64,000 bases of DNA from NCBI RefSeq assembly GCF_000735585.1, contig NZ_JNNO01000004.1:1-64000 (forward strand), in the 5' to 3' direction. The DNA comes from Devosia sp. LC5 (GTDB taxonomy: Bacteria > Pseudomonadota > Alphaproteobacteria > Rhizobiales > Devosiaceae). Numbering within the stretch: position 1 is the stretch's first letter; each line of letters starts with the position of its first letter. Shown piece by piece: positions 37,863-56,673 of this stretch. The notes under the pieces are model-generated. The model did not search any database and was not told the origin of the DNA. It saw only the letters and a program-made list of their open reading frames with translations. The translations under genes and the position numbers were made by a program.

Positions 37863-38115
37863 CTCATGTTCTCCTGGTGCTTTGCGAGCTATGAGCATAA
37901 CGCCTATCGGCCCAGCTTGATCCAGCGCAAACCGGCCCGAATATTGCCCTGCCGACCGGCGGGCAGCCGCCTCCTGGAACTGCGCAGGCCTCCTCCTCCA
38001 GCTCGGCGGGATGCGCGCGGTGCTTCCCCTCGTCATGAGCCTTCGGGCGCGCCAGCGTGCCCTTGGCGCAATTCTTCTCGCGCGGGTTCACTGCGGGCAA
38101 GCGTGACTTTGGATG

Positions 38116-38679
38116 CTAGTCCGCTTTGGGCCTCGACATGAACCGAGACGGTGGCGCCATGACCGTCGTGCTGTCCGGAACATCGGTAACAACTACGGCA
38201 TTGGGCCCGATCTTCACGTCGTTTCCAATCCGAACTTTGCCCATGACCACAGCGCCAACCCCAAGATCCACTCTGTCACCCAGAACCGGTGCAAACTCGG
38301 GTCCGAATTCACGCCGGTCAATGCCACCAATTCCCAAGGTCACCCCTTGGCGGATCAGGAGATCATCGCCAATCGTCGCATGACGATGGATCACGATGCC
38401 CCCCTGGTGTCCAATGTGCAGGCGTCGCCCGATTTTGGCGGTGGGCGAAATCTCAATGCCATAGACGTTCCTGATGTAGCGGTTAACTAAAGAGTGAAGC
38501 GCCGAGAAAATGAACCTGGTCAAGCCATGCTCTCGGCTGCGCGCCCAGACGCCAAAGCGATATACGACCGCAGCTCGGGTACCGGGCCGCCCCCAGTCAC
38601 GCTGATTAACCTCAAGATCTTCTCGAACAAGTTGCTTCAGCCCAACAGTTCGCATCAGTTCATTTTCGATTTTTTGCAT
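38116..38679 (-). CDS. Serine-acetyltransferase-like hexapeptide-repeat acyltransferase
   Basis: About 187 residues. A helical N-terminus (VREDLEVNQRDWGRPGTRAA) and a left-handed beta-helix of hexapeptide repeats (IGRRLHIGHQGGIVIHRHATIGDDLLIRQGVTLG, quoted in part as HIGHQGGIVIH), with catalytic-type His in that stretch, then GDRVDLGVGAVVMGKVRIG. The family uses acetyl-CoA; members beside acyl-carrier genes often modify polysaccharide rather than making cysteine. The ATG at 38679 follows GGGAA; an ATG at 38706 is also possible. It is divergent from the acyl carrier protein gene across about 100 bases. Confidence 0.75.
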   Translation of the reverse strand: MQKIENELMRTVGLKQLVREDLEVNQRDWGRPGTRAAVVYRFGVWARSREHGLTRFIFSALHSLVNRYIRNVYGIEISPTAKIGRRLHIGHQGGIVIHRHATIGDDLLIRQGVTLGIGGIDRREFGPEFAPVLGDRVDLGVGAVVMGKVRIGNDVKIGPNAVVVTDVPDSTTVMAPPSRFMSRPKAD

Positions 38680-38777
38680 GGCAGATTCCCGGAGAATAAT
38701 ATTCATTGCTTGCGCGCTGAAGTTTTGGCTAAGCTAGTTAGATATTAGGGAATCCGGAATAGAAAGTGGGAATTTTT

Positions 38778-39035
38778 ATGAACAAGGAAGAGGTTGAGAG
38801 CAGGATAAGGTCGGCATTCGCAAAGACAATTGATGACAATGGCACGAAAATTGAAGATGCGCTAACTGACGAGACAGTTTTACTCGAAACAGCCCTCGAT
38901 TCACTTGGGTTTGCAATTCTGGTCGCTCGGCTTGAGGAGGACCTTGGTTGGGACCCTTTCTCGATCTCTGACACGCCCTTTTATCCCGAGACGTTCGGGC
39001 AATTTGTAGCGTTTTATGCCGATAACCAACCTTGA
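38778..39035 (+). CDS. Acyl carrier protein (phosphopantetheine-binding)
   Basis: An 85-residue carrier protein of the four-helix type. Ser42 in TALDSLGF is the expected phosphopantetheine site, and the acidic helix VARLEEDLGWDPF follows. It differs from the essential AcpP in the DSL surroundings, so it should be a dedicated carrier for one acyl group. The ATG at 38778 is preferred to the GTG at 38766. Its last 20 bases overlap the ligase gene, showing tight coupling. Base composition here is visibly more AT-rich than the rest of the window. Confidence 0.82.
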   Translation: MNKEEVESRIRSAFAKTIDDNGTKIEDALTDETVLLETALDSLGFAILVARLEEDLGWDPFSISDTPFYPETFGQFVAFYADNQP

Positions 39036-40371
39036 ACAGGCTGTGCTCGATCGCAGGATCGAGCAGGCGGTGATCATAAGCGAACACGGATATTGGGGCC
39101 TGACGGACCTCCGGGTTCTCGTGAATGCCGATGTGCTTATCAGGGCCAGGGACTACCGGTCCGTTGCTTTGCGCCTGACTGATCCAGCCAAACTTGCGCT
39201 CGCCCTCCTGGCGTTGGATGGATTTGTCGAGCGGCTGTTGCTTTTGTCTGCCGATTTGGCTGACGACCTGGCTGCCAGCCTGAGTGCGCAGTTCGGAGCG
39301 GACGCCATCCTCACGGACCTTGACGGTGGCTTGACCCCGGCGGTTCCCAATCGCCTGGTATGGACAGGGCCGACTAGTGCCGGTCCTGATCAAAGCCCTT
39401 CGCCCAAAACGGCAACAGAGTGGACGCTCACGACCTCAGGCACGACAGGTGTACCAAAGCTCGTAACGCACACGCTTGCGTCCCTTTCTCGAACAACCAA
39501 GGGGGCAGCAACGGCGAAATACCGTTGGGGGCAACTTTACAGCATGGAGCGGTTCGCAGGCTTGCAGGTATTCCTCCAGGCTTTACTGGGGGGCAGCCTT
39601 GTATTGCCTGGAACAGAATGGCCATTGCCCAGGCGATTGAGTTATCTTGCCGACCACGAATGTACAGCACTGTCAGCCACCCCGACGCTTTGGCGCAAGA
39701 TTTTGATGACCCCCGCCAGTGCGTCCCTGGCACCGATGCAGATCACGTTAGGGGGCGAAATCGTTGATGATGCCATACTTGGCGCCTTGGCCGCTCGTTT
39801 TCCAGCTTCTCGTATTGTTCACATCTATGCTTCCACTGAAGCCGGGGTGGGGTTTTCGGTGAAAGATGGACGCGAGGGCTTCCCTGTTGAATACCTCGCT
39901 GACGCTCCCGGCGGGGTGCAGCTCAAGATTGTCGATGGACATTTGTTCATACGTAACCCTGCGGCCAGGACAATTGCCGAGTTGGACTCCGCGAGCAGCG
40001 ACGCTTCATTTATCGATACGGGAGATGCTGTTGCCGTCATAGGAGAGCGTTGTTACTTCCTTGGACGCGCAAGCGGAGTCATCAATGTTGGTGGCAACAA
40101 GCTCTTTCCAGAGGAGGTAGAGCAGGTTCTGCTGGCCCATCCTGCTGTGAAGCAAGCCAGGGTTTGGGGGATAAAAAGTCCAATCACCGGCCAGCTCGTC
40201 TCTGCCGAAATTGTTCCTGCTTCCCAAGATTACGCGATAGAAGAATTACACAAAATCTTGCATCGGTATTGCACGGACAGGCTTGAGCCTTGGAAAATGC
40301 CCGCGATCATTCGCGTTGTTGACGACTTGGAAGTCAATGCCGCCGGCAAGGTAAAGAGAAGCCCACAATGA
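39016..40371 (+). CDS. AMP-dependent ligase (ANL superfamily), proposed loader of the adjacent carrier protein
   Basis: A 451-residue adenylating enzyme. Motif WTLTTSGTTGVPK (about 138) binds ATP, HIYASTEAGVGF is the A5 region, IDTGDAVAVIG and the hinge GRASGVINVGGNKLFPEEVE begin the C-terminal subdomain, and GKVKRS near the end carries the catalytic lysine. It should activate an acyl acid as an adenylate and pass it to the carrier protein whose gene it overlaps by 20 bases. The N-terminal subdomain is shorter than in fatty-acyl-CoA ligases. Acyl substrate unknown. Confidence 0.8.
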   Translation: MPITNLEQAVLDRRIEQAVIISEHGYWGLTDLRVLVNADVLIRARDYRSVALRLTDPAKLALALLALDGFVERLLLLSADLADDLAASLSAQFGADAILTDLDGGLTPAVPNRLVWTGPTSAGPDQSPSPKTATEWTLTTSGTTGVPKLVTHTLASLSRTTKGAATAKYRWGQLYSMERFAGLQVFLQALLGGSLVLPGTEWPLPRRLSYLADHECTALSATPTLWRKILMTPASASLAPMQITLGGEIVDDAILGALAARFPASRIVHIYASTEAGVGFSVKDGREGFPVEYLADAPGGVQLKIVDGHLFIRNPAARTIAELDSASSDASFIDTGDAVAVIGERCYFLGRASGVINVGGNKLFPEEVEQVLLAHPAVKQARVWGIKSPITGQLVSAEIVPASQDYAIEELHKILHRYCTDRLEPWKMPAIIRVVDDLEVNAAGKVKRSPQ

Positions 40372-41090
40372 AGACAGCTCTTGTTACCGGAGCCACCCGA
40401 GGACTCGGTGCGGCGATCGCAAATCGTCTTCTGGCAGAGGGCTACAAGGTCATAGCGACCGGTCGGCGGGAAACTGAAGACGTCGTCCGTATGCGCGAAG
40501 CATATGGCGAGGCCCTGGCGTTTGAGGCTTTCGATCTGGCGCAGACGGACCTGATTGCCGATCTGGTGAAGGGTTTGGTTCGACAGCATGGACCAATCTA
40601 TGGGTTGGTGAACAATGCCGGAATTGGCACTGACGGCATCTTGGGAACTATGCATAATTCCGACATTCAGCGCGTGATGACGGTGAATTCAATCGCTCCC
40701 ATGATCCTCACCAAATACCTTTCGCGTTCAATGATGCTCGCGGGGGAGGGGCGGATCGTGAACGTATCCTCCATCATCGCTTCCACGGGCTTTTCGGGCC
40801 TTGCCGTATATGCTGCATCCAAGGCTTCTCTGGAGGGATTTACACGCTCTCTCGCGCGAGAACTGGGCCGGCTCAACATCACCGTCAATGCGCTGGCTCC
40901 AGGCTTCATGCAAACCGATATGACAGGCTCGCTCGTGGGCGATAAACTTGGATCGATCTTGCGCCGAAGTCCGCTTCAACGCCTCGCTACTACGGCCGAC
41001 GCGGCTGGAGCCGTGGCATATTTCCTTGGCCCTGACGGGGCGGCAGTAACAGGCACGGTGTTGACAGTAGACGCCGGTAGCACTGCGTGA
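40368..41090 (+). CDS. Short-chain dehydrogenase/reductase, FabG-like
   Basis: A 240-residue NAD(P)-dependent reductase. TGATRGLGAAIA binds the cofactor, NNAGIG is the structural motif, the catalytic Tyr147-x3-Lys lies in YAASKAS and Ser in VSSIIAS; ends PDGAAVTGTVLTVDAG like 3-oxoacyl-carrier reductases. It overlaps the ligase stop (ATGA). With the carrier and ligase it could make a hydroxyacyl group, such as a 3-hydroxyacyl chain for a surface sugar (inference). Confidence 0.85.
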   Translation: MKTALVTGATRGLGAAIANRLLAEGYKVIATGRRETEDVVRMREAYGEALAFEAFDLAQTDLIADLVKGLVRQHGPIYGLVNNAGIGTDGILGTMHNSDIQRVMTVNSIAPMILTKYLSRSMMLAGEGRIVNVSSIIASTGFSGLAVYAASKASLEGFTRSLARELGRLNITVNALAPGFMQTDMTGSLVGDKLGSILRRSPLQRLATTADAAGAVAYFLGPDGAAVTGTVLTVDAGSTA

Positions 41091-41248
41091 TGCTGCTTGC
41101 GGCAATGAACTGCTGCCGGTTTTGAGGGCACAAGTCGAGCTTACTGAACTGCGCCCCTAGCCCAGTGGGCTGGCCCCGCCGAAATTTAAAGGCCGGTGAT
41201 CGGGTCCCAGTCGGTCGGGTGGGCGTCGGATCTATCCATCAAATGCAG

Positions 41249-41298
41249 TTATCGCTCCTGCAGGTAATTGCATTTCTCGTTTATCGCCCCGGCTGCTA
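41249..41298 (+). promoter_or_regulatory. Island promoter motif, site 1 (before first binding-protein gene)
   Basis: TTATCGC (41249-41255), 12 bases, TTGCATT (41268-41274), 8 bases, ATCG (41283-41286), 7 bases, TGCTA (41294-41298). Spacing is identical to sites 2 and 3. TTATCGC recurs at 41281-41287 as a direct repeat 32 bases on, a whole number of helical turns. The start codon at 41351 is 53 bases beyond the end of the motif. Proposed operator for the LysR regulator at 47507-48496. Confidence 0.75.
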
Positions 41299-41350
41299 GG
41301 TCGAAGGGAGGCCGAACCCGGATAACACGGGCGGCTCCGGAGGATACAGC

Positions 41351-42859
41351 ATGAACAAGCGGCTTCTAACTGCCGTTCTGGCCGGCGCTCTCATGTTGGG
41401 CGTGGCGCCCTCGGCCTTGGCGCAAGTGGCGAACGACGCCGATACGCTGGCGCTCGGCGCGACGATCGACAATGTGAGCTTCGACCGCGCCCAGCTGATG
41501 ATCGGCCATCAACTCCAGTACTGGTCGCCAGTTTTCGATACGCTGCTGGTGCGCGAGCCCAACGGCGATATCGGCCCGAACATGGCGGCCGAATACAGCT
41601 ATAACGGCGATAACAGCGAGCTGACGCTGAAGCTGCGCGAAGGCATCACCTTCACGGATGGCACGCCCTTCGATGGCGAGGCGGTGAAGGCAAACCTGGA
41701 ATACCTCAAGAATGGCGCGGGCCAGAACAGTTTCATGGCCGCCTCGATTTCCGAGATCGAGATCGTCTCGCCCAACGAGGTCAAGCTGCGCCTCGCCGAG
41801 CCCGATCCCGGCTTGCTGCAAAACCTTGCCGTCGTCGGCGGCGCGATGGCCTCGCCTGCTAGCCTGGGTGTCGAAGGTTCGGCCAATAACCCCATCGGCT
41901 CCGGCCCCTATACTTATGACGCGACCGCCTCCGTCGCCGGCCGCCAGTATGTCTACAACCGCAATCCCGACTATTGGAACGCCGCCGATTTCCCGTTCGA
42001 ACGGGTCACCATCACGCCGATCAACGACAATGTGGCTCGACTCAACGCGCTGAAGTCCGGCCAGATCGATGCCGGTATCAGCGAAGCCCGCGCCGTGGCC
42101 GATGCCGAGGCCAATGGCCTGGTACTCAATCGCGTCGATGTCGACTGGTTCGGCCTGATCATCGCTGACCGCGAAGGCAAGATTGCGCCGGCTCTGGCCG
42201 ATTTGCGCGTTCGCAAGGCGCTCAACATGGCCTTTGATGGTGCGTCCATCTTGAAGTTTGTCGACCTGGGTTATGGCCGCTTGTCCGATCAGATCTTTCC
42301 ATCCACCAGCCAGGCCTATGTTCCCGAACTCGACGAGGCCTATCCCTTCGACCCGGCTGCCGCCAAGGCGCTGCTCGCCGAGGCCGGGTATCCGGATGGA
42401 TTTGAACTTCTTCTTCCGGAAACGACCAACTACGCCGCCTTCAATCCCATTGTGGAGAAATTCCTCAAGGATATCGGCATCACCGTTAAGTGGGAAAAGA
42501 TTGCGCCCAACGCGGTCATTTCTGAGCTGCGCTCCGGAAAGTTTCCGGCCTACGTCTTCCAGTTCGGCTATCAGGGCGAGTGGTCGGAAATCCGCAAGTT
42601 CGGCTTCCCCGACAGCCCCTGGAACACCTCCAAGGTCGCCGACCCGGCTCTCCTCGAACTGATCGACAAGGTTCAGTATGCCTCGGGCGACGAGCAGAAC
42701 GCGCTCTACAAGGATGTTGGCCGCTACTTCGTCGAGAATGCCTATTACGCGCCGATGTATCGTCGCGACATCATCTATCTGACCAACAAGCAAACCGTTG
42801 TGGATCTGCAGACGACAAATGTGGTCTCGCCCATCCGCAATTACTCCAAAGCCGAATAG
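41351..42859 (+). CDS. ABC importer substrate-binding protein, family 5 (first paralogue)
   Basis: A 502-residue periplasmic binding protein of the peptide/nickel/oligosaccharide class. Signal peptide of about 24 residues (cleavage after ALA-Q). The mature part has the SBP family 5 features LTLKLREGITFTDGTPFDGEAVKANLEY and LRVRKALNMAFD. It aligns without gaps along its length with the second paralogue at 45964. It is expressed from the island promoter motif at 41249 and ends at a strong terminator. In the sulfatase island it probably captures a sulfated organic compound for the permease at 48697 (inference). Confidence 0.88.
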   Translation: MNKRLLTAVLAGALMLGVAPSALAQVANDADTLALGATIDNVSFDRAQLMIGHQLQYWSPVFDTLLVREPNGDIGPNMAAEYSYNGDNSELTLKLREGITFTDGTPFDGEAVKANLEYLKNGAGQNSFMAASISEIEIVSPNEVKLRLAEPDPGLLQNLAVVGGAMASPASLGVEGSANNPIGSGPYTYDATASVAGRQYVYNRNPDYWNAADFPFERVTITPINDNVARLNALKSGQIDAGISEARAVADAEANGLVLNRVDVDWFGLIIADREGKIAPALADLRVRKALNMAFDGASILKFVDLGYGRLSDQIFPSTSQAYVPELDEAYPFDPAAAKALLAEAGYPDGFELLLPETTNYAAFNPIVEKFLKDIGITVKWEKIAPNAVISELRSGKFPAYVFQFGYQGEWSEIRKFGFPDSPWNTSKVADPALLELIDKVQYASGDEQNALYKDVGRYFVENAYYAPMYRRDIIYLTNKQTVVDLQTTNVVSPIRNYSKAE

Positions 42860-42882
42860 TCCTCCCAAGTCTGTTCGAGCAG

Positions 42883-42911
42883 AAAGGCGGCCAGCACCGG
42901 CCGCCTTTTTT
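42883..42911 (+). terminator. Rho-independent terminator after the first binding-protein gene
   Basis: AAAGGCGGCC and GGCCGCCTTT are perfect 10-base arms around the loop AGCACC, followed by further T residues. It lies between the binding-protein stop (42859) and the hydrolase start (42932), so the hydrolase depends on read-through or a promoter of its own. Confidence 0.9.
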
Positions 42912-42931
42912 CTTCGTTTTATGGAGCGCCT

Positions 42932-43840
42932 ATGTCTGATGATGCCCGCGCCGCCCAGCGCAAAGAACTCGACGTCTGTCTCGATCGCTTCGAAAGCCGT
43001 GCCGATGGCGCCCGCGTCTGGCCCGAACTGCTCTATAGCCAGCCCTTCGGTTTTCGCGCGCTGACCATGTCGCTTGCCGTGCCGCCGGGGCAGGGGCCGC
43101 ATCCGCTTGTGGTCTATATCCATGGCGGCGGCTGGATGCTGGGCCATCCCCATGCCATGCACCCCAATCTGGCGGCCATGCACATCGTCGAAACCCTGCT
43201 GGCCGCTGGCTATGCCGTTGCCCGGCCATCCTACCGCCTCTCGGGCGAAGGCAAGTTTCCGACCCAGTTGCAGGACCTCAAGACGGCGCTCCGCTACCTC
43301 CGCCACCATGGGGCGCTGTTCAATATCGCGCCCGACCGCATTGCTGCGCTCGGCGAGAGTGCCGGCGGTCACCTGGCGGTCCTGCTTGGCCTCGAGACGC
43401 CGCCCGACTGCGAAGGCGATGAGGGATTTGTCGAGGAGAGCGGCAAGGTACAGGCCGTCATCAACTGGTATGGCGTTACCGACATGCTCAATCTGGACGC
43501 GCATTCGCTGCCGACCGCCCGCTTCAAGCACGACGCGCCAGAATCCGCCTCCGGCCGGCTTATCGGCGGCCGCCCTTCCGATAATCCGGAAGCCGCTCGC
43601 CGCGCCTCGCCCATCACCTGGGTAACCCCGAGGTCTGCTCCCATGCTCATCCAGCACGGCACCTCGGATTCAATCGTCCCGCCCCGCCAGGGCGAAAGCC
43701 TCTATGAAGCGCTGCGGAGTGTTGGCGTGTCAGCCGAATGGCACCCGGTTGAGGGCGCCGACCATTGCTTCATCGATGGCGACACCGCCCCGATCATGCC
43801 GGCAGTGACCGGCTTTCTCGGACGATACTTGAAGGTCTGA
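42932..43840 (+). CDS. Alpha/beta-hydrolase fold esterase in the sulfatase island
   Basis: A 302-residue cytoplasmic hydrolase. The oxyanion loop is HGGGW (about residue 64), the nucleophile Ser is in GESAGGH (about 142), the acid Asp in HGTSDSIVPP and the catalytic His in GADHCF, so the catalytic set is complete. Similar to BD-FAE/carboxylesterase-type enzymes. Sited downstream of the first binding protein and convergent with the first sulfatase; a role in trimming an ester from the imported compound is inferred. GGAG lies 6 bases before the ATG. Confidence 0.82.
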   Translation: MSDDARAAQRKELDVCLDRFESRADGARVWPELLYSQPFGFRALTMSLAVPPGQGPHPLVVYIHGGGWMLGHPHAMHPNLAAMHIVETLLAAGYAVARPSYRLSGEGKFPTQLQDLKTALRYLRHHGALFNIAPDRIAALGESAGGHLAVLLGLETPPDCEGDEGFVEESGKVQAVINWYGVTDMLNLDAHSLPTARFKHDAPESASGRLIGGRPSDNPEAARRASPITWVTPRSAPMLIQHGTSDSIVPPRQGESLYEALRSVGVSAEWHPVEGADHCFIDGDTAPIMPAVTGFLGRYLKV

Positions 43841-43879
43841 AGTCGCCGTATGTGACGCGTGCAACTACGATAGCGCCCT

Positions 43880-45718
43880 TCACGCGGGCACGGGCTTGCT
43901 TGTGCTGGCCTTCTGCTTGCCCATCTGACCCTCGCCATCGAGCCGGCTCAAGTCGAAAATGACATTGGTTGGTCGATAGGTCCCGTCCAGCCGTTGCGCC
44001 AGATAGTCCGACGATTGGCGTAAATAGGTGTCGTCATCATCATGCAACGCCTGCACTGCGGCGAGAGAAATATCGGCATGGAGCGGTAGCCAGGTCAGTG
44101 CATCCAGGGCCTGCAGCTTGACGCGCGGATCGTCACTGTCGGCGAGAATTTTCGTCACCTCGCTTGCCCAATGGCGGTCGTCCCCCACGCGCCCCAGCGC
44201 CTCCGCCAGTGGAATGCGCACCTGTGGATCGCTCTCAGCCGCATAGGCCTCGGCCACACCGTCGGGTAGGGGCAGGCCGGCCGCGGCCAGTCCCAACAGT
44301 CCACGCGCCGCCCAGTGCCTTGCGACCGCCGAGCCATGCGTCAGGTCGGCGACAAATCCCGACCCATTTGCGGGATCACGCTCGGCCCCTCGTGCGGCAA
44401 TCTCCATGATCCTGCCGAGCGGGTAGATGGCCTCGTCCTGGCTCGCGGTCCAGGTTTCTGCAGCGCTATGTTCCGGAATGAAGCCGGTATCGCCAATAGC
44501 GAGCATATGCTGGTCGAGTGCCGCGCGGTGTTCATCGGCCAGCACAAGGTGCGAGCGCGAGCCGATCAGGTTGACGGTGGCGTCGGGATCGGCATCGAGG
44601 TCATAAAACTCCTCCGCCGGCTTCTGCCGCCAGAATTGTTCCTGCTTGTCGTCAAGCGTCCCGGAGAGGCGCTCCGTCTCATAATCCTGATAATGCGCAC
44701 CAAGCCATTCGAAGGCGACATATTGGCCGAGCGGACGATAGGGGGTGTAGTTGCGGATATAGCGATAGCGCGCCGAGCGCACCGTACGGCTGAGATCATA
44801 GCGCTCGCCCATGCGATCGCGCCCGCCGAATACATATTGGCGCGGGTCAACCGCGAGGCCCAGCAGGGTATTTCCATGCAACTGCCGCGGCACCTCGACC
44901 CCGGCAATGGTGAGGAAGGTCGGAAAGAGGTCGACCAGCGATGCCGGCGCCTCCACCCGAGCACCGGGCCCATGCTGGGTGAGATGCCACCACTTCGGCG
45001 GTACGCGGATCACCAGCGGTACCCTGAGCCCTTCGTCATAGAGATAGCGCTTGGAGCGGGGCAGGGCCGAACCGTGATCGGAAAAGTAGAAGACTACCGT
45101 ATCCTCGGCGAGACCGTCGGCCTCAAGATCTGCCAGATGCCCACCCAGCTCCGCATCCATCTTCGCCATGGCATTGTAGTGCCGCGCCATGCTCTGCCGC
45201 ATCCCCGGCGTATCTGGCAGGTAGGAGGGCAGGGTGACATCTTCGGGCCGCACCGAGCCTTCCTGTTCCTTGAAAGTGCAGGATTCATGCGTCGTCATGC
45301 AGTTGAAGACGGCAAGGAAAGGCTGGCCGTCGGCCCGGTTGCGCCAGTGCGCCGTGCGGCTCGATTCATCCCAGATCTCGTCGGGGTCGACATCGCAATT
45401 GTAGTGCGTCTTGGCATTGTTGGTGCAGTAATATCCGGCCTTCCGCATCTCGGCGGGATAGGTGAGAAAGCCTTCGGGCAGATGCGCCAGCGCCTGCATA
45501 TGCTGGGCGCGCGGACAACTTTCAGCATGCCGCCCGGTCAGAATGGCGAAGCGCGATGGCGCGCAGACCGGCGAGGTACAATTGGCTGTTTCATAAAGCA
45601 TGCCCTCCGAGGCAAGGCGATCGAGATGCGGCGTCCGCGCCACGGGATCACCATAGGCACCAATCTTGGGTGGGCAGTCCTCGCTGACGATGCACAATAT
45701 GTTGGGCCGTTTGGTCAT
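43880..45718 (-). CDS. Sulfatase 1 with C-terminal HEAT-like repeats
   Basis: A 612-residue type I sulfatase that removes sulfate from an ester or sulfamate. The metal-binding start RPNILCIVSEDC and the formylglycine site Cys52 in CAPSR (CAPSRFAILTGR) are intact. Alkaline-phosphatase-like core to about 480, then helical HEAT-type repeats (VRIPLAEALGRVGDDRHWASEV). No signal peptide, so it acts in the cytoplasm. The ATG at 45718 has GGAGA in front. A weaker copy of the island promoter motif lies divergently upstream. Substrate unknown; core resembles the heparan N-sulfatase-like group. Confidence 0.88.
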   Translation of the reverse strand: MTKRPNILCIVSEDCPPKIGAYGDPVARTPHLDRLASEGMLYETANCTSPVCAPSRFAILTGRHAESCPRAQHMQALAHLPEGFLTYPAEMRKAGYYCTNNAKTHYNCDVDPDEIWDESSRTAHWRNRADGQPFLAVFNCMTTHESCTFKEQEGSVRPEDVTLPSYLPDTPGMRQSMARHYNAMAKMDAELGGHLADLEADGLAEDTVVFYFSDHGSALPRSKRYLYDEGLRVPLVIRVPPKWWHLTQHGPGARVEAPASLVDLFPTFLTIAGVEVPRQLHGNTLLGLAVDPRQYVFGGRDRMGERYDLSRTVRSARYRYIRNYTPYRPLGQYVAFEWLGAHYQDYETERLSGTLDDKQEQFWRQKPAEEFYDLDADPDATVNLIGSRSHLVLADEHRAALDQHMLAIGDTGFIPEHSAAETWTASQDEAIYPLGRIMEIAARGAERDPANGSGFVADLTHGSAVARHWAARGLLGLAAAGLPLPDGVAEAYAAESDPQVRIPLAEALGRVGDDRHWASEVTKILADSDDPRVKLQALDALTWLPLHADISLAAVQALHDDDDTYLRQSSDYLAQRLDGTYRPTNVIFDLSRLDGEGQMGKQKASTSKPVPA

Positions 45719-45788
45719 CTCGCGTCTCCACGGTTTTCCAAGCGGTACCATTGGGCTGCGAAGGCGAGGACTGCTTAAAGTCGCCACA

Positions 45789-45795
45789 GCGATAA
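45789..45795 (-). promoter_or_regulatory. Degenerate island motif facing sulfatase 1
   Basis: TTATCGC on the minus strand starting at 45795, followed after 12 bases by AAGCAGT (compare TTGCATT) and then CCTCG, where sites 1 and 2 have TCTCG. The distance to the sulfatase 1 start is 77 bases. Spacing is right but the second box is poor, so a weaker binding site is possible. Confidence 0.35.
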
Positions 45796-45838
45796 GCTGT
45801 CTGCATCGGTCACCGGCCGCGCCGGCGATCAGCCGCGC

Positions 45839-45888
45839 TTATCGCCTTCGCAGGTCTTTGCATTTCTCGGTAATCGCTGCCAATGCTA
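45839..45888 (+). promoter_or_regulatory. Island promoter motif, site 2 (before second binding-protein gene)
   Basis: TTATCGC (45839-45845), 12 bases, TTGCATT (45858-45864), 8 bases, ATCG (45873-45876), 7 bases, TGCTA (45884-45888). The last stretch extends into TGCTAGG, as in site 1. It lies in the 245-base gap between the divergent sulfatase 1 and second binding-protein genes. Confidence 0.75.
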
Positions 45889-45963
45889 GGCAGGGGTAGG
45901 CGAAGAGCCGGAACGGCCCGCTGAGGAGTGCTGCCCTTCGGGGCAGTAGTGGAGGACCCAGTC

Positions 45964-47472
45964 ATGAAGACCATTCTGCTCGCGGCAGCTGTCGCGGCAT
46001 TAAGCTCTGTTGCCGTTATGCCCGCCGCCATGGCGCAAGTGGCCAATGACGAGAACACGCTCGCCATCGCCGCCATTCTCGACAACAACAGTTTCGACCG
46101 CGCCCAGCTGATGATCGCAAACCAGATGCAGTTCTGGCAGCCGGTGCTCGACACCCTGCTGGTCGCCAGGCCGGATGGCACGATTGAGCCAAACCTTGCC
46201 ACCGAGTGGTCTTACAACGCTGACAACAGCGTGCTGACGCTGAAACTGCGCGAAGGCATCTCCTTCACCGATGGCACCCCCTTCGATGGCGCTGCGGTGA
46301 AGGCCAATCTCGAATACCTCAAGAACGGCGCCGGCCAGAACAGCTTTATGGCTGCCCTCATCTCCGAGGTGGAAGTCCTTTCTCCCACCGAAGTGGCACT
46401 GCATCTCAGCGAGCCCGATCCGGCACTGATTGACAATCTCACCGTCGTCGGTGGTGCCATGGCCTCTCCGGCGACCCTGGGCGTCGAGGCTTTCGCCAAC
46501 AATCCCATCGGCTCGGGCCCCTATGTCTTCGACGCCCAGAATTCCGTGCTTGGCCGGCAATATGTCTACAACCGCAATGCCGGCTACTGGAACGCCCAGG
46601 CCTATCCCTATGACCGCATCACCATCACCCCGATCAACGACCAGGTCGCCCGTCTGAACGCACTGAAATCGGGCCAGGTTGACGCCGGTCTCGGCGAAGC
46701 CCGCACCGTGGCCGATGCTGAAGCCAATGGCCTCGTGGTCCACAAGAGCGACGTCAACTGGCTCGGCTTCATCATCGCCGACCGCGAGGGCAAGATTGCC
46801 CCGGCCCTCGCCGACATGCGTGTCCGCAAGGCCCTCAACATGGCCTTCGACAAGGCCTCGATCCTCAAATTCGTCGAGCTCGGCCACGGCCGTCTCAGTG
46901 ACCAGATCTTCCCAACTGTCAGCGAGGCCTATCTGCCCGAACTCGACGAGGTCTATGCCTATGACCCCGCTGCCGCCAAGGCGCTCCTCGCCGAAGCCGG
47001 CTTTGCCGGGGGCTTCAGCCTGAAGCTGCCGGACATCGCCAATTTCGCCAATTTCAATCCGATCGTCGAACAGCAGCTCAATGCCATCGGCGTCACCATA
47101 GAGTGGGAAAAGATCGCCCCCAACGCCACCATTCCCGAACTGCGCTCGGGCAAGTTCCCCGCCTATGTCTTCCAGTTCGGCTACCAGGGCTCCTGGGCCG
47201 AATACCGCAAGTTCGGTTATCCCGATTCGCCCTGGAACACCGCCAGGGTCGCCGATCCCGCTTTCCTCGAAATGCTCGACAAAACCCAGTATGCCACTGG
47301 CAGCGAGCAGATCGCAGGCTATCAGGATCTCAACCGCTACATGGTCGAAAACGCCTTCTTCGCCCCCTGGTACCGGCGCGACACGATCTATCTGACTACC
47401 CCTGAGACCAAAGTGGAAATGCGCGGCACCAACGCCGTCCCCCATATCCGCGACTTCGCGAAGGCCGGCTAG
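45964..47472 (+). CDS. ABC importer substrate-binding protein, family 5 (second paralogue)
   Basis: A 502-residue periplasmic binding protein, same length as the first paralogue and gaplessly alignable to it (shared GYQG..WNT and DFAKAG/NYSKAE ends). Signal peptide of about 25 residues (AMA-Q). GGAGG lies 8 bases before the ATG at 45964. Differences cluster in stretches expected to line the ligand pocket, such as PDIANFANFNP versus PETTNYAAFNP, so the two may capture different members of one substrate class. Nearest permease genes begin 1.2 kb downstream on the same strand beyond lysR. Confidence 0.88.
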   Translation: MKTILLAAAVAALSSVAVMPAAMAQVANDENTLAIAAILDNNSFDRAQLMIANQMQFWQPVLDTLLVARPDGTIEPNLATEWSYNADNSVLTLKLREGISFTDGTPFDGAAVKANLEYLKNGAGQNSFMAALISEVEVLSPTEVALHLSEPDPALIDNLTVVGGAMASPATLGVEAFANNPIGSGPYVFDAQNSVLGRQYVYNRNAGYWNAQAYPYDRITITPINDQVARLNALKSGQVDAGLGEARTVADAEANGLVVHKSDVNWLGFIIADREGKIAPALADMRVRKALNMAFDKASILKFVELGHGRLSDQIFPTVSEAYLPELDEVYAYDPAAAKALLAEAGFAGGFSLKLPDIANFANFNPIVEQQLNAIGVTIEWEKIAPNATIPELRSGKFPAYVFQFGYQGSWAEYRKFGYPDSPWNTARVADPAFLEMLDKTQYATGSEQIAGYQDLNRYMVENAFFAPWYRRDTIYLTTPETKVEMRGTNAVPHIRDFAKAG

Positions 47473-47494
47473 TCCTCCCAGATGGTCCCTCGCG

Positions 47495-47522
47495 GTTCGG
47501 GCAGCCTCAGGGCTGCCCGAAC
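47495..47522. terminator. Hairpin between the second binding-protein gene and lysR
   Basis: GTTCGGGCAGCC and GGCTGCCCGAAC are perfect 12-base arms around the loop TCAG, which holds the stop codon (minus strand TGA, 47507-47509) of the lysR gene. It can serve as terminator for both convergent genes. No clear T run. Confidence 0.7.
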
Positions 47523-48496
47523 TCTCGTTCGCCGGTCGGTGACTTCACACCGCCGGCCCGCGAAAGGTCGAAATCCAGTTCCTCGGTGACGCCGAATTTG
47601 TCTTGGCAAAGTCGGAGGAGTGTCTTCATCGGCGCCCAGTCGCGCATCTCGGTGCGGAAGATCATGCCGATATCCGCCGTGCTTCGGCGCATGGGCAGGG
47701 GGATCGGCACGATCTTGGGCGAATTCACCGCCTGCACCGAGAGGTAGGGCAGCACGCACAGACAATCGCTTTGCTGCAATATCGTCAGCACCGAGAGCAG
47801 GTTCTGGCAGATGAAGCGAACGTCAGGCAGGCCACCGATATATTCGGCCACGGTATGTTCGGTAATCTCCCGATAGGCCGGCAGCTCGGAATAGACGATC
47901 CAGGGATAGGCCCGCAGGCTCGATGGCGGAATGGCGTCGGGGTTCTTGCCCGCCAACAGCGGATGATCTTCCCGCGCCATCACGTAATTGGTCACCTCGG
48001 TCAGCTTCACCCGCGCAAACCGCGGACTGCTGCCCCCATCGTTGAAGACCCCGCCAAAGGCGACGTCCAGCCGCCCTTCACGCAGGTCCTGCAGCGTCTT
48101 GCCATAGGTCAGCGTTGTGAATTCGATGACGATGCGCGGATAAGAACTCTGCAACTCGGCCAGGATGCTCGACAGGATCCCCGAGCGCCAGACCGGCCCC
48201 CCGCCGATCCGCATTATCGTTTTTTCGTCCGTCACCTCGGCGCGCAGTTCGTGTTCGGCAATCTCCCAATAGCGCTCGATGCGATTGGAAACCGACAGCA
48301 CCTTTTCTCCAAACGGCGTCGCCTTCACGCCCCGCGCATGCCGCTCCACCAGTTGCTGTCCGAAGTAGCTTTCGAGCTGGGCAAGCGAACGCGACAATGC
48401 TGGTTGCGTCACGTTCAGCTTCTCCGAGGCGCGGCGCAGGCTGCCCTCTTCGAGAATGGTGCGCAGGCGAAAAAGGTGCGTGATCTGGTCCAGCAT
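47507..48496 (-). CDS. LysR-family transcriptional regulator of the sulfatase island
   Basis: A 329-residue regulator. Winged helix-turn-helix at the N-terminus (EEGSLRRASEKLNVTQPALSRSLAQLE), then a two-lobed effector-binding domain (IGGGPVWRSGILSSILAELQ onward). It sits between the two transport parts of the island, divergent from the permease operon, and the island promoter motif begins 18 bases upstream of its start codon. In Pseudomonas, LysR-type proteins (CysB, SftR) govern sulfate-ester use, which supports a similar role here by analogy. Start ATG at 48496. Confidence 0.88.
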   Translation of the reverse strand: MLDQITHLFRLRTILEEGSLRRASEKLNVTQPALSRSLAQLESYFGQQLVERHARGVKATPFGEKVLSVSNRIERYWEIAEHELRAEVTDEKTIMRIGGGPVWRSGILSSILAELQSSYPRIVIEFTTLTYGKTLQDLREGRLDVAFGGVFNDGGSSPRFARVKLTEVTNYVMAREDHPLLAGKNPDAIPPSSLRAYPWIVYSELPAYREITEHTVAEYIGGLPDVRFICQNLLSVLTILQQSDCLCVLPYLSVQAVNSPKIVPIPLPMRRSTADIGMIFRTEMRDWAPMKTLLRLCQDKFGVTEELDFDLSRAGGVKSPTGEREFGQP

Positions 48497-48513
48497 CGAG
48501 GTATCAGCCTTAT

Positions 48514-48563
48514 TTATCGCTCAAGGAGTTTTTTGCATTATCTGCGCATCGGTTCAACTGCTA
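48514..48563 (+). promoter_or_regulatory. Island promoter motif, site 3 (lysR / permease operon)
   Basis: TTATCGC (48514-48520), 12 bases, TTGCATT (48533-48539), 8 bases, ATCG (48548-48551), 7 bases, TGCTA (48559-48563). It lies between the divergent lysR and permease genes, the usual place for a LysR regulator to bind its own promoter and its target. Confidence 0.75.
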
Positions 48564-48620
48564 TCACAAGATCAACGAGCGCCCGAAGCCACAAATGGCG
48601 GGGTATTGTGGAGGAAAATC

Positions 48621-48704
48621 ATGATCACTTTCGGCCCGGGCGCCGCTGGGGACGGACGTCCCTTCGCGCCGGAAAGTGCGGGGAAGGACCTTCCCCATGC
48701 TTAG
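48621..48704 (+). CDS. Possible 27-residue leader peptide before the permease gene
   Basis: A short frame with an excellent ribosome site (GGAGG 6 bases before the ATG at 48621). Its stop overlaps the permease start by 8 bases, an arrangement that would couple translation. The peptide is rich in Gly, Pro and Ala with no membrane character. It could be a real leader, or chance coding in a GC-rich leader; it has no relatives that I recognise. Confidence 0.35.
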   Translation: MITFGPGAAGDGRPFAPESAGKDLPHA

Positions 48705-49635
48705 CTATGTGTCCAAGAGACTGCTTTCGAGCCTGGTTTTGCTAGCCCTGGTCACGACGCTGACCTTCGCCATGGTCTTTGGCGGCGCCGATAATGTCGC
48801 CCAGAACATTCTGGGCGAAAACGCCACCGATCAGCAGATTGCCGATCTCGAAACCAGGCTCGGCATCGACCGCCCGCTCTACGAGCAATATGGCACCTGG
48901 GTTGCCAAGGCCGTGCGTGGCGATCTGGGCGTGTCCTGGACCATGGGCGAGAGCGTCTCCAAGATTCTCTCGGGCCGGCTGCCTGTAACCCTGTCCATGG
49001 TCGTGCTTGCCATCTGCATCATCGGCATCGTCTCGGCCCTTCTGGGCATCGCCGCCGCCGTGCGTGGCGGCTGGGCCGATCGCGTCATCCAACTCATCAG
49101 CGTCGTGGGCTTCTCGCTCCCCAATTTCTGGCTGGGCCTTATCCTTGTGGTCGTCTTCGCGCTCAATCTGCGCTGGCTTCCCGCCACCGGCTACACGGAC
49201 TTCCTCAACTCGCCAACCGGCTGGCTTGCCTCGCTCGCCCTGCCGGTCGGCGCTCTGGTCCTGTCCGGTATTGCCTCTGCTTCCCAGCAGGTGCGCGGCG
49301 CCATGATCGACGCGCTGCGCCAGGACTATGTCCGCACCCTGCGCGCCGGCGGCATCAAGCCGTCTTCGGTCTTGTTCCGCCACGCTCTGCGCAATGCCAT
49401 GCCGGCGGCGTTGACCGTGCTGTCGCTGCAGTTCATCGGCCTGCTGGGCGGTGCTGCCATCATCGAACGCGTCTTCGCTATTCCCGGCCTGGGCTCGATC
49501 ACCGTGCAGGCAGCCCTTTCGGGCGACATTCCTGTGCTCATGGGCGTCGTGGTCACCATGATTATTCTCGTCGTCATCGTGAATATCGCCATCGACCTGG
49601 CCAACGCCTGGGTCAACCCGAAGGTGCGCCTCTGA
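48697..49635 (+). CDS. ABC importer permease, DppB type
   Basis: A 312-residue inner-membrane permease with six spans. It has the DppB-type N-terminus (FAMVFGGADNVAQNIL, LGIDRPLYEQYGTWV), the coupling EAA loop near DALRQDYVRTLRAGGIKPSSV and the C-terminal ERVFAIPGLGSITVQAALSGDIPVLMG region, quoted in part. It overlaps the next gene in TGATG. With the fused permease-ATPase and the DppF-type ATPase it forms the complete importer. Confidence 0.9.
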   Translation: MLSYVSKRLLSSLVLLALVTTLTFAMVFGGADNVAQNILGENATDQQIADLETRLGIDRPLYEQYGTWVAKAVRGDLGVSWTMGESVSKILSGRLPVTLSMVVLAICIIGIVSALLGIAAAVRGGWADRVIQLISVVGFSLPNFWLGLILVVVFALNLRWLPATGYTDFLNSPTGWLASLALPVGALVLSGIASASQQVRGAMIDALRQDYVRTLRAGGIKPSSVLFRHALRNAMPAALTVLSLQFIGLLGGAAIIERVFAIPGLGSITVQAALSGDIPVLMGVVVTMIILVVIVNIAIDLANAWVNPKVRL

Positions 49636-51398
49636 TGTCCCCTGCAAGTTCCGCTCCGGCGCCGGTCAGCGCCCCAGGCCGCGTAAGCATCGTTCGCTCG
49701 GTGCTGACCAATCCGCTCGGGCTCATCGCCGCCATTCTGCTTCTGCTCGTCATCGTCGCTACGGTCTTCGCGCCGCTGATTGCCCCCTTTGCCGCCGGTG
49801 ACCTGCAGATATTCAAGATCAATGCCCCGCCGGGCGACGGTTACCTGCTTGGTGGCGACGGGTCCGGCCGCGATATCTTCAGCCGCCTGGTCTATGGCGC
49901 CCAGAATACGTTGATCGGGGCCCTGATCGCTCTCAGCGTTGCCGCAATCATCGGTGTCACGGCAGGTCTGTTCGCCGGCTATTTCGGTGGCCGCCGCGAG
50001 GTGGTGATGAGCTGGATCGCCGATGGCCTCATGGCCCTGCCGGCCCTCATCGTGCTGCTGGCCTTCTACCAGTCGCTGGGCTCGTCCATTCACGTGTCCA
50101 TGGTCATCTTCGGCGTCATGCTGTCGCCTGGCTTCTACCGGCTCACACGCAATCTCGTGAACGGGGTCAAGCACGAACTCTATGTCGATGCGGCACGCGT
50201 CTCGGGCCTGTCGGATATGCGCATCATCGCCCGGCACATTCTGCTGGTCATCCGCGCCCCGGTCATCATCCAGACCTCCATCGTGGCCGGCATTTCCATC
50301 GTCATCCAGGCCGGTCTCGAATTCCTGGGCCTGGGCGATCCGTCCATTCCCACCTGGGGCGGCATGCTGCAGGATGCTTTCGCGAACATGTTCGTCGTGC
50401 CCACTGCCATCCTCTGGCCTGGCCTGGCCATCTCGGTAACGGTGGCGTCCTTCGTGCTGCTCGCCAACGCCATCCGCGATCGCCTGCAACAGGGCAATCG
50501 GGTGGCTGCGGCGCCCGCGCTTCCTGCTGCAGTTCCTCAGTCAGTGGGCGCGGCGCCTACCGATGCCGGCGTGCTGCTCGATGTCCGGGACCTCGTCGTC
50601 GGCTATCCGGCCAAGTCCGGATGGACCGAAGTCGTCAACGGCGTATCCCTGCAGCTCCGCCGCGGCGAAGTCCTCGGCCTTGTCGGCGAAAGTGGCTCGG
50701 GCAAGACCCAGACGGCTTTTGCCATTCTTGGTCTCCTTTCCACCGGCGGCCGCATCCTCTCGGGCTGCATCTGGTTTGATGGTCGCGACATTGCCAATCT
50801 GCCCGAAAGCGAAATGCAGAAGCTGCGAGGCAAGCGCATTGCCTATGTCCCGCAGGAGCCGATGAGCAATCTCGATCCGGCGTTCCGCATCGGCTATCAG
50901 CTCACCGAGCCCATGGTCACCGTGCTGGGCATCTCGCGGGCCGAGGCCAAGGCCCGCGCGCTGAAACTGCTCGCCCGCGTCGGCATGCCCGACCCCAATC
51001 GGACCTTCAATTCCTATCCGCACCAGGTTTCGGGCGGCATGGCGCAGCGCGTCCTCATCGCCCGGGCCATTTCCTGTAGCCCCGACCTTCTGATTGCCGA
51101 CGAGCCCACCACGGCGCTTGACGTCACCGTGCAGGCCGAAGTGCTCGAACTGATGCGCGATCTCCAGGCCGAGATGAACATGTCCGTGGTGCTTGTCACC
51201 CACAACTTTGGTGTCGTTGCGGACCTCTGCCACCGGGTCTCGGTGATGAAGGATGGTCGCGTGGTCGAGACCAGCGCGGTGAAGACCCTCTTCGCCGATC
51301 CTCAGCATGACTACACCAAGATGCTGCTGGCTGCCGTGCTCGATGATGTGACGCCGCGTGTCTATAAGCCCCTGCAAGCCAAGGAGGTTTCGGCATGA
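49635..51398 (+). CDS. Fused ABC permease (DppC type) and ATPase (DppD type)
   Basis: A 587-residue fusion. Residues about 20-290 are the DppC-like permease (GGDGSGRDIFSRLVYGAQNTL, the EAA loop DAARVSGLSDMRIIARHIL, and LEFLGLGDPSIPTWGGML). After a proline/alanine-rich linker (about 292-310), residues 312-587 are an oligopeptide-type ATPase with Walker A GESGSGKTQ (about 350), the signature VSGGMAQRV and Walker B LLIADEPTTALD. Separate genes are usual for these parts, so the fusion fixes their stoichiometry. ATGA overlap with the next gene. Confidence 0.9.
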   Translation: MSPASSAPAPVSAPGRVSIVRSVLTNPLGLIAAILLLLVIVATVFAPLIAPFAAGDLQIFKINAPPGDGYLLGGDGSGRDIFSRLVYGAQNTLIGALIALSVAAIIGVTAGLFAGYFGGRREVVMSWIADGLMALPALIVLLAFYQSLGSSIHVSMVIFGVMLSPGFYRLTRNLVNGVKHELYVDAARVSGLSDMRIIARHILLVIRAPVIIQTSIVAGISIVIQAGLEFLGLGDPSIPTWGGMLQDAFANMFVVPTAILWPGLAISVTVASFVLLANAIRDRLQQGNRVAAAPALPAAVPQSVGAAPTDAGVLLDVRDLVVGYPAKSGWTEVVNGVSLQLRRGEVLGLVGESGSGKTQTAFAILGLLSTGGRILSGCIWFDGRDIANLPESEMQKLRGKRIAYVPQEPMSNLDPAFRIGYQLTEPMVTVLGISRAEAKARALKLLARVGMPDPNRTFNSYPHQVSGGMAQRVLIARAISCSPDLLIADEPTTALDVTVQAEVLELMRDLQAEMNMSVVLVTHNFGVVADLCHRVSVMKDGRVVETSAVKTLFADPQHDYTKMLLAAVLDDVTPRVYKPLQAKEVSA

Positions 51399-52207
51399 GC
51401 GACGTGATTGTCGAGTGCATCGACGTGAACACCCATTTTGGTGTCCATCACGTCCTCAAGAATATTAATCTTACCGTCCGTCCGGGCGAAACCGTCGGCC
51501 TCGTGGGCGAAAGCGGATCGGGCAAGACCACGTTGGGCCGCGCCATTCTCGGCATTGGTCCGGTCAGTTCCGGCCGCATTCTCTTTGAGGGTCAGGATAT
51601 TGCTGGCATTGCCCCGCGCGATCGCAAGGGCAACGCGGCCTCCATTCAGGCCGTGTTCCAGGATCCATACACCTCTCTCAATCCCTCGATGACCATCGAG
51701 GACATTCTGGTCGAGCCAATCGCCGCCCGCGGCCAGGCCTCCAAGGTCGATGCCACGGCACAGGTTCGCAAACTGCTCGACCAGGTGGCCCTGCCGAGCG
51801 ATGCCGCTTACCGCTATCCCCGCGAGTTCTCCGGCGGCCAGCGCCAGCGCGTCGCGATCGCGCGTGCCCTGGCCCTTTCACCGCACCTTATCGTTTGCGA
51901 CGAGCCGGTGTCCGCGCTCGACCTATCGACCCAGGCCCGCGTGCTCGAACTCTTCGTCGAGATCCAGGAGCGCACCGGCGTGGCCTATCTGTTCGTCAGC
52001 CACGATCTTTCGGTCGTCCGGCATATCTCGCATCGCGTCGCGGTCATGCGCGGTGGCGAGATCGTCGAGTTCGGCGAATGCGACCAGGTTACCGCCAATC
52101 CGCAGCACGACTACACCAAGCGCCTGCTGCTGGCCGCTCCGGTGGCCGATCCCGTCCGGCAGGCCGACCGCCGCGCCGCCCTCCGCGCCCTTGCCGTTGG
52201 AGCTTGA
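51395..52207 (+). CDS. ABC importer ATPase, DppF type
   Basis: A 270-residue ATPase. Walker A GESGSGKTTLGRAILG (about 38), Q-loop QAVFQDPYTSLNPSMT, signature FSGGQRQRVAIARA, Walker B LIVCDEPVSALD and the H-loop VSHDLSVV. It should pair with the ATPase half of the preceding fusion. The C-terminal oligopeptide-family extension seen in many DppF proteins is short. Six bases separate it from the second sulfatase gene, so the operon continues. Confidence 0.92.
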   Translation: MSDVIVECIDVNTHFGVHHVLKNINLTVRPGETVGLVGESGSGKTTLGRAILGIGPVSSGRILFEGQDIAGIAPRDRKGNAASIQAVFQDPYTSLNPSMTIEDILVEPIAARGQASKVDATAQVRKLLDQVALPSDAAYRYPREFSGGQRQRVAIARALALSPHLIVCDEPVSALDLSTQARVLELFVEIQERTGVAYLFVSHDLSVVRHISHRVAVMRGGEIVEFGECDQVTANPQHDYTKRLLLAAPVADPVRQADRRAALRALAVGA

Positions 52208-52212
52208 TTGCC

Positions 52213-53994: not shown

Positions 53995-54016
53995 CGATAT
54001 ATTTCAGGATCTTACT

Positions 54017-55561: not shown

Positions 55562-55683
55562 CCGGGATGACTGAAATGACCAGGACCATCGCCGAGCTTC
55601 TCGACATTACGAGGCCGGAAGAGCGGGTTTCCTTGCTCTCGGGCAGAAGGCGGCGCTCCATCGAAGTCGAGCCGCGCCCATGA
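55558..55683 (+). CDS. Possible 41-residue coupled protein between sulfatase 3 and the formylglycine enzyme
   Basis: A short frame beginning at a GTG that overlaps the sulfatase 3 stop (GTGA) and ending in an ATGA overlap with the formylglycine-enzyme start. Such double overlap is typical of real operon members. The peptide has a hydrophobic stretch (TIAELLDI) and a basic run of four Arg (RRRR). An in-frame ATG at 55567 is an alternative start. No family recognised. Confidence 0.45.
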   Translation: MTGMTEMTRTIAELLDITRPEERVSLLSGRRRRSIEVEPRP

Positions 55684-56618: not shown

Positions 56619-56673
56619 ACATCTGCTGGTCGAGCCGTTCGGCTTGGGCTCCATTCTGTTCGCGGCGCCACAA

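Follow-up and report, generated by a model that had tools for sequence, protein, structure and literature searches.

The 64,000-nucleotide stretch considered here, called the window below (positions 1 to 64,000, forward strand, of contig NZ_JNNO01000004.1 of Devosia sp. LC5, family Devosiaceae), carries an island of sulfatase and transporter genes in which three upstream regions, two before solute-binding protein (SBP) genes and one between a lysR gene and a permease operon, follow one spaced sequence pattern. These three sites, and the LysR-type regulator encoded beside the third of them, are the subject of this report. The island contains two paralogous family-5 SBPs, an esterase-like hydrolase, sulfatases A, B and C, the LysR protein, a permease, a permease-ATPase fusion, a second ATPase (ATPase 2, named by sequence and position, without a family search), an FGE-type enzyme and a TauE-type exporter; the genes seem to import and desulfate some sulfated compound. 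The genes are arranged as follows:

41351–42859, plus strand: SBP1, solute-binding protein of family 5 (PF00496, E 2.3e-61)
42932–43840, plus strand: alpha/beta hydrolase, BD-FAE-like (PF20434)
43880–45718, minus strand: sulfatase A (PF00884; start proposed at ATG 45718, not GTG 45787)
45964–47472, plus strand: SBP2, paralogue of SBP1 (355 of 502 aligned residues identical)
47507–48496, minus strand: LysR-type regulator, the proposed activator (PF00126, PF03466)
48697–55561, plus strand: permease, permease-ATPase fusion, ATPase 2, sulfatase B and sulfatase C (Pfam matches, open reading frames), probably one operon behind site 3
55680–57603, plus strand: FGE-type sulfatase-modifying enzyme and TauE/SafE-type exporter (PF03781, PF01925), downstream of sulfatase C

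The initial annotation of this DNA had described the pattern as TTATCGC-N12-TTGCATT-N8-ATCG-N7-TGCTA, starting at 41249, 45839 and 48514, and all three places indeed carry it with 0 mismatches over 23 letters. The window holds no further place for the 23-letter pattern at up to 3 mismatches (100 shuffles gave a mean of 0.00), and the half-pattern TTATCGC-N12-TTGCATT occurs exactly at three places in the assembly (4,202,858 bases, 47 contigs, 98.94% complete), all of which are sites 1–3. When up to 2 mismatches are allowed, the assembly has 11 places (7 forward, 4 reverse) versus 8 for the pattern read backward; because this control also yields 8, the 8 inexact places are at background level. 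A weighted profile scored at these places alone gave at best 10.2 (on contig C16) and below 0 for the rest, and they were set aside as chance. Pairwise, the 50-mers of the sites agree at 37, 32 and 32 of 50 positions, and their upstream flanks at 16, 16 and 13 of 40. The description of the flanks as unrelated is correct only in part, as sites 1 and 2 precede the paralogous SBP genes; the 50-mers of these two share 37 of 50 positions, as compared with 16 of 40 in the upstream flank. The components of the three sites are as follows:

41235–41255, plus strand: site 1, putative LysR box (RBS), TCCATCA-N7-TTATCGC, from the 36-site alignment; predicted centre −64
41268–41286, plus strand: site 1, candidate activation site (ABS), TTGCATT and ATCG
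41294–41298, plus strand: site 1, probable extended −10, TGCTA; predicted +1 at 41309, 42 nt before the SBP1 ATG; hexamer TAGGTC
45825–45845, plus strand: site 2, putative LysR box (RBS), GCGATCA-N7-TTATCGC
45858–45876, plus strand: site 2, candidate activation site (ABS), TTGCATT and ATCG
45884–45888, plus strand: site 2, probable extended −10, TGCTA; predicted +1 at 45899, 65 nt before the SBP2 ATG; hexamer TAGGCA
48500–48520, plus strand: site 3, putative LysR box (RBS), GGTATCA-N7-TTATCGC, 3 bases from the lysR start codon
48533–48551, plus strand: site 3, candidate activation site (ABS), TTGCATT and ATCG
48559–48563, plus strand: site 3, probable extended −10, TGCTA; predicted +1 at 48574; hexamer TATCAC

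The anatomy of the sites was studied in an alignment of 36 of them, drawn from the window and from related loci and genomes (denoted by L and G numbers): 13 permease sites, 13 binding-protein sites, 9 at loci whose LysR is 41–46% identical, and 1 at a second cluster of G120. The alignment omits L040 (site sequences equal to those of L039) and L073 (its contig being that of L036), as well as sites of the sulfatase A type, places of lower score in L043, L045, L047 and L082, and the binding-protein site of L041 with its one additional base; L075, from Saccharopolyspora with a 29% LysR, had no site scoring above 10 and was not used. Information per column reaches 0.92 bits in the 50-bp block, as compared with 0.34 in the 40 bp above it and 0.15 in the 60 bp below.

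TTATCGC is the right arm of a palindrome, GCGATAA-N7-TTATCGC, whose left arm lies at −14 to −8 when TTATCGC is numbered 0 to 6; the pattern as first annotated therefore starts too late, the left arm being 8–14 bp upstream of TTATCGC. The palindrome has the T-N11-A form of a LysR box in 35 of the 36 aligned sites, including all three in the window. Matches to GCGATAA peak at offset −14 with 5.08 of 7, the next offset giving 3.39 and all offsets a mean of 1.78 (standard deviation 0.59), and the 19 sites away from a lysR start give 5.11 at the same offset. This constitutes an independent test, because the left arm was absent from the models that found the sites. TTATCGC was also tried as the left half of the box and rejected, as its best partner is upstream at −14 and not downstream. 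A search of the own genome with the box only (GATNA-N7-TTATCGC, up to 1 mismatch) returned 45 places versus 29 in the control, which is too unspecific for naming targets.

The second TTATCGC of site 1, annotated as recurring 32 bases downstream, is found at 41281; at the equivalent position, site 2 has TAATCGC and site 3 has GCATCGG, which makes this copy a shared half-site. The last block has the form TG-N-TA, at 45–49, in 31 of 36 sites. In extended −10 promoters, a TG stands one base upstream of the −10 hexamer, giving TG-N-TA, and TGCTA is probably such an element and not part of an operator; TGNTA resembles the extended −10, and class membership is not claimed because the hexamers do not fit. 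With its T set at −12, the centre of the box falls at −64, and the activation half-sites at about −41 to −23, so that the second (activation) site would be at about −31 from the predicted +1, which is a purine in 30 of 36 sites. LysR-type promoters have a box centred near −65 and an activation site near −35. For LysR proteins, the RBS/ABS scheme and the T-N11-A motif are set out in the sections of PMC11739112 and PMC3382589 that deal with them. TTGCATT was rejected as a plain −35, being too far from the −10 once TGNTA is taken as extended −10; the bases at a 17-bp spacer from the −10 are TTCTCG, TTCTCG and TATCTG in sites 1–3. The "one rigid operator" of the initial annotation is not entirely accurate: the block has the look of a composite of regulator box (T-N11-A), activation site and polymerase element (TGNTA) at fixed spacing, which, if true, also illustrates a way of reading rigid patterns of this type.

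The pattern is restricted to the island locus. A search of 75 genomes from the genus found the exact half-pattern 14 times, in 9 genomes (and never for the backward control); 13 of these places are at the island locus or its orthologues, and the 14th, in G002, is without any of the surrounding genes at E 1e-20. LysR homologues at least 68% identical are encoded by 8 of the 75 genomes, and all 8 carry the pattern at the island locus. Within the family (136 genomes), LysR (E <=1e-55) was found in 14 genomes; the pattern, searched without ATCG at up to 2 mismatches, is also in 14, and 12 genomes have both. The backward control gave a single place, in G105. Every family genome with a LysR at least 60% identical has the pattern (10 of 10), versus 4 of the 126 others (G002, G024, G030, G078), for a Fisher p of 2.4e-12 that ignores kinship; the match in G024 adjoins a 41% LysR. 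At the level of the order, for which 397 genomes were drawn, up to 2 mismatches gave 9 places spread over 4 genomes, three of which have LysR and account for 8 of the places, and the backward control gave 0; at 3 mismatches, 11 more places appeared in 10 further genomes, none with a LysR match, and none in G050 and G479, where LysR is present. Set aside as chance were the matches in G002, G078 and G030 at 1934230 (the latter two with profile scores of −7.5 and −5.0) and G122 (8.8). The initial annotation had named the occurrence of the pattern at many unrelated promoters as the counter-case to its proposal, and this was not seen in the own genome, the genus, the family or the 397 genomes of the order. 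A site precedes the permease also in Oryzicola, Neorhizobium, Rhizobium and Roseinatronobacter, which we take to lie outside the family of the window, and precedes the binding-protein gene in the three of them where a homologue was found.

Two of the related loci have features of their own. G120 has one more site (L080, 2862–2925, plus strand), some 14 kb away from lysR, in front of a second set of binding-protein and transporter genes that differs from the first and has a sulfatase B homologue (59% over 456 residues) behind it. In the genus relative L044 (7000–16500), a LysR of about 43% identity is accompanied by four copies of the layout, which surround genes for a sugar-type transporter (its binding protein being of family 1), a 3-keto-disaccharide hydrolase, two Gfo/Idh oxidoreductases and a xylose-isomerase-like protein, with homologues of sulfatase C and FGE alongside; on these gene assignments, the locus is an apparent sulfated-glycoside pathway.

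We infer, with a probability of about 0.83, that the LysR protein encoded at 47507–48496 activates the promoters at sites 1–3, which would thereby form one regulon. According to this proposal, two LysR dimers would sit at each promoter, the first on the T-N11-A box GCGATAA-N7-TTATCGC, centred near −64, and the second on the activation half-sites GCATT/ATCG, at about −41 to −23, overlapping the −35 region. As the promoters combine no good −35 hexamer with a partial −10 (TG-N-TA), RNA polymerase would need LysR. The inducer, probably an imported sulfated compound or a breakdown product of it, would move the second dimer and thereby induce both SBPs, sulfatases B and C and the Opp-type transporter jointly; sulfatase A probably responds likewise through a fourth, weaker site, described below. 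The box at 48500–48520, beside the start of lysR, would let LysR limit its own expression.

The same sites could act mainly in repression, with a ligand releasing LysR, and we consider this unlikely. The proposed activation half-sites do overlap the −35 region and the −35/−10 spacer, where a bound protein could block polymerase, the box of site 3 is 3 bases from the lysR start, as autorepression would have it, and the model in the relevant part of PMC11739112 includes repression without effector. Against this, the centre of the box near −64 is upstream of polymerase, and the lack of a good −35 and of a full −10 is as in activator-dependent promoters; moreover, the same part of PMC11739112 describes an effector-dependent move to the activation site followed by activation, and the portion of PMC3382589 concerned with PltR describes activation by that protein.

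As for which protein reads the sites, common control by the adjacent LysR, as first annotated, is well supported by the comparisons (a box of LysR type, and its tracking of the LysR clade), and LysR would be expected to bind there. The protein exceeds the Pfam cut-offs for both domains, with 63.4 bits for HTH_1 (PF00126; cut-off 26.6) and 93.7 bits for LysR_substrate (PF03466; cut-off 28), and its gene and the permease operon diverge around site 3. In L041 and L042, lysR is not divergent from the permease, yet the permease site is kept, with lysR still close to a binding-protein gene, and some sites are kilobases away from lysR. At all six loci with a LysR of about 41–46% identity a site lies upstream of lysR (by about 15 bases in five and about 105 in L044); L044 has a different transporter class, whose binding protein belongs to family 1. 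Of the permease homologues unlinked to LysR, the nearest three (55–63%) have no site within 1.5 kb on either side, the best score being −22.1. LysR is favoured as the regulator because the box is of LysR type, because the permease site stays where lysR has moved, because all six 41–46% loci keep a site, and because the LysR-unlinked permease homologues have none. That another transcription factor reads the sites, LysR being a mere passenger of the cluster, is less likely again: LysR and permease co-occur perfectly, so that presence and absence cannot choose between them, but the T-N11-A form in 35 of 36 sites is that of LysR proteins, the box follows the LysR clade despite a different transporter and neighbours (in L044 and, by position, in L045–L048 and L082), and the unlinked permease homologues have no box.

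It is very improbable that the three upstream regions are relics of duplication, copies of an ancestral promoter that need no current control; the SBP1/SBP2 paralogy (355 of 502) and the 37 of 50 positions shared by sites 1 and 2 are what such copies would give, but the flanks have drifted (16 of 40) around unchanged spaced blocks, the gene behind the permease site is an unrelated one, and the blocks are kept in Neorhizobium, Rhizobium and Roseinatronobacter, with conservation dropping after TGNTA. Least credible of all is a conserved stretch that acts as RNA, as a riboswitch or attenuator leader, since, for all that the predicted leaders measure 42, 65 and 123 nt and the permease leader has a small open reading frame (ORF) in the relatives examined, there is no Rfam match in 38000–58000 at gathering thresholds, the conservation is upstream of the predicted +1, and stretches of 100–103 nt over the permease start, taken from 6 of the 13 loci, show no folding advantage over shuffles (z −1.23 to +0.70).

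The small ORF itself has 27 codons, at 48621–48704 (plus strand), between the site 3 promoter and the permease, with GGAGG before it and its end across the permease start codon: ATGCTTAG. All 13 permease leaders contain an ORF of 20–33 codons, depending on the start chosen, with GGAG, GAGG or AGGA upstream and an end between −5 and +8 relative to the permease start (+8 for 9 leaders); the peptides look unconserved except between closest relatives, a count made without a control. The ORF at 48621–48704 may be a leader cistron for translational coupling.

A weaker site was found on the minus strand, between SBP2 and the divergent sulfatase A gene:

45746–45809, minus strand: weaker fourth site, CCGATGC-N7-TTATCGC ... 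TGGTA; predicted +1 at 45735

This site, read from 45809 to 45746, is fairly likely to be the promoter site of sulfatase A, and the shared signal is accordingly real at three promoters and probably present at four. It was scored with a 64-column profile that has sites 1–3 among its training rows, so that their own scores of 75.1, 66.6 and 65.6 are not independent; the fourth site scores 9.6, the fifth place −4.1, and the best place in the reversed window −4.6. T-N11-A and TGNTA recur at the same spacing in all six distinct sulfatase A promoters (window, L036, L071, L072, L079 and L081). The predicted +1 at 45735 falls between GTG 45787 and ATG 45718, which would place the start of sulfatase A at ATG 45718, 17 nt after the +1. 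Between sulfatase A and SBP2, at 45789–45845, there are two putative LysR boxes that face apart with their centres 36 bp from each other, and with this arrangement the two promoters may influence each other.

Several observations weigh against the proposal of LysR-activated promoters, or limit parts of it. With regard to the box, the left arms in the window are imperfect (TCCATCA, GCGATCA, GGTATCA), the site at 12625 in L044 has its box shifted by one base and is the sole T-N11-A failure, and many of the 36 aligned sites are related by descent. The absence of any change in spacing, as first annotated, holds within the window and not in relatives, where the spacing is looser by 1 bp in two cases: the binding-protein site of L038 has its ATCG block shifted, and that of L041 carries an additional base before TGCTA. 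Regarding the polymerase element, the window hexamers listed above are far from TATAAT and only TG-N-TA fits, which makes the extended −10 part less sure; a sigma-70 consensus scan of 41100–48800 finds none of the promoters, and purine counts at other positions from 52 to 67 are 13 to 27, a neighbour of the predicted +1 reaching 27. Among the relatives, G022 and G050 (at up to 2 mismatches) and G479 (at up to 3) have a 41–46% LysR and no pattern match, and the G030 match lies elsewhere and was judged chance, with a weaker site beside the G030 lysR; the sites of these four genomes emerge only with the weighted profile. The family genomes that encode permease orthologues of at least 73% identity are the same 10 as for LysR, so co-occurrence cannot separate LysR from its operon. 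Finally, the sulfatase A site has neither TTGCATT nor ATCG, and its 9.6 is exceeded by an unrelated place of the own genome with 2 mismatches (10.2), with the chance place in G122 close at 8.8.

The alpha/beta hydrolase gene stands apart from the sites, as the profile scan found none in front of it, and it is perhaps read from the SBP1 promoter. A terminator-like hairpin of 12 pairs with a T-rich tail, at 42881–42910 (plus strand), separates it from SBP1, and such transcription would pass through this hairpin. The region has 8 hairpins of this kind (5.8 on average in shuffles), of which this one is the longest. For sulfatase C, the closest solved structures are an N-acetylglucosamine-6-sulfatase, followed by mucin-desulfating and other sulfatases, which makes a sulfated sugar a reasonable guess for the substrate; all NCBIfam models listed for sulfatases A, B and C score below their cut-offs.

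Our literature searches found no description of this operator or regulon, and the closest parallel is with LysR-type promoters of the BenM/CatM/PcaQ kind, which likewise pair an HTH_1 and LysR_substrate protein with a T-N11-A dyad (here predicted near −64), a second site (here predicted near −31), and a lysR gene divergent from the target operon. BenM, NtcB and CatM are among the closest solved structures to the LysR protein, and its best NCBIfam model is PcaQ, at 91.7 bits versus a cut-off of 303.8, which does not place it in the PcaQ regulon; unlike these systems, which govern aromatic catabolism, the island has sulfatases and an Opp/Dpp-type transporter as targets. The lys box of PltR in the pyoluteorin operon of Pseudomonas aeruginosa M18, according to the part of PMC3382589 devoted to it, is also a T-N11-A palindrome with a neighbouring LysR, extends from −74 to −53 from the transcript start and is required for activation; it differs in sequence and pathway, and its authors state, in that same part, that the sliding-dimer model might not hold for it. 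Choline-O-sulfate catabolism, as covered in the pertinent portion of PMC12442346, is another alphaproteobacterial sulfate-ester pathway with a local regulator, the one named there being BetI and not a LysR protein.

The regulon is new, but of a known LysR-type kind, and its signal resembles many known LysR-type switches. Beyond the window, the odds are about even that a LysR clade with one conserved promoter layout (T-N11-A box, activation site and TGNTA in near-fixed phase) marks loci for the uptake and desulfation of sulfated-glycan fragments across Alphaproteobacteria, with the transporter swapped between Opp-type and family-1 (CUT1-like) systems; a sulfatase C homologue at least 71% identical is present at 5 of the 6 loci with a 41–46% LysR, the sixth, L047, being a 13 kb stretch at a contig end. 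In that case, the layout could be a search key for undescribed sulfated-glycan pathways. If the proposal of LysR-activated promoters is true, the sites provide a DNA signature for a regulon that couples the import of a sulfated compound to its desulfation; further pathway genes could be found by this signature, and a simple promoter fusion would allow a search for the inducer.

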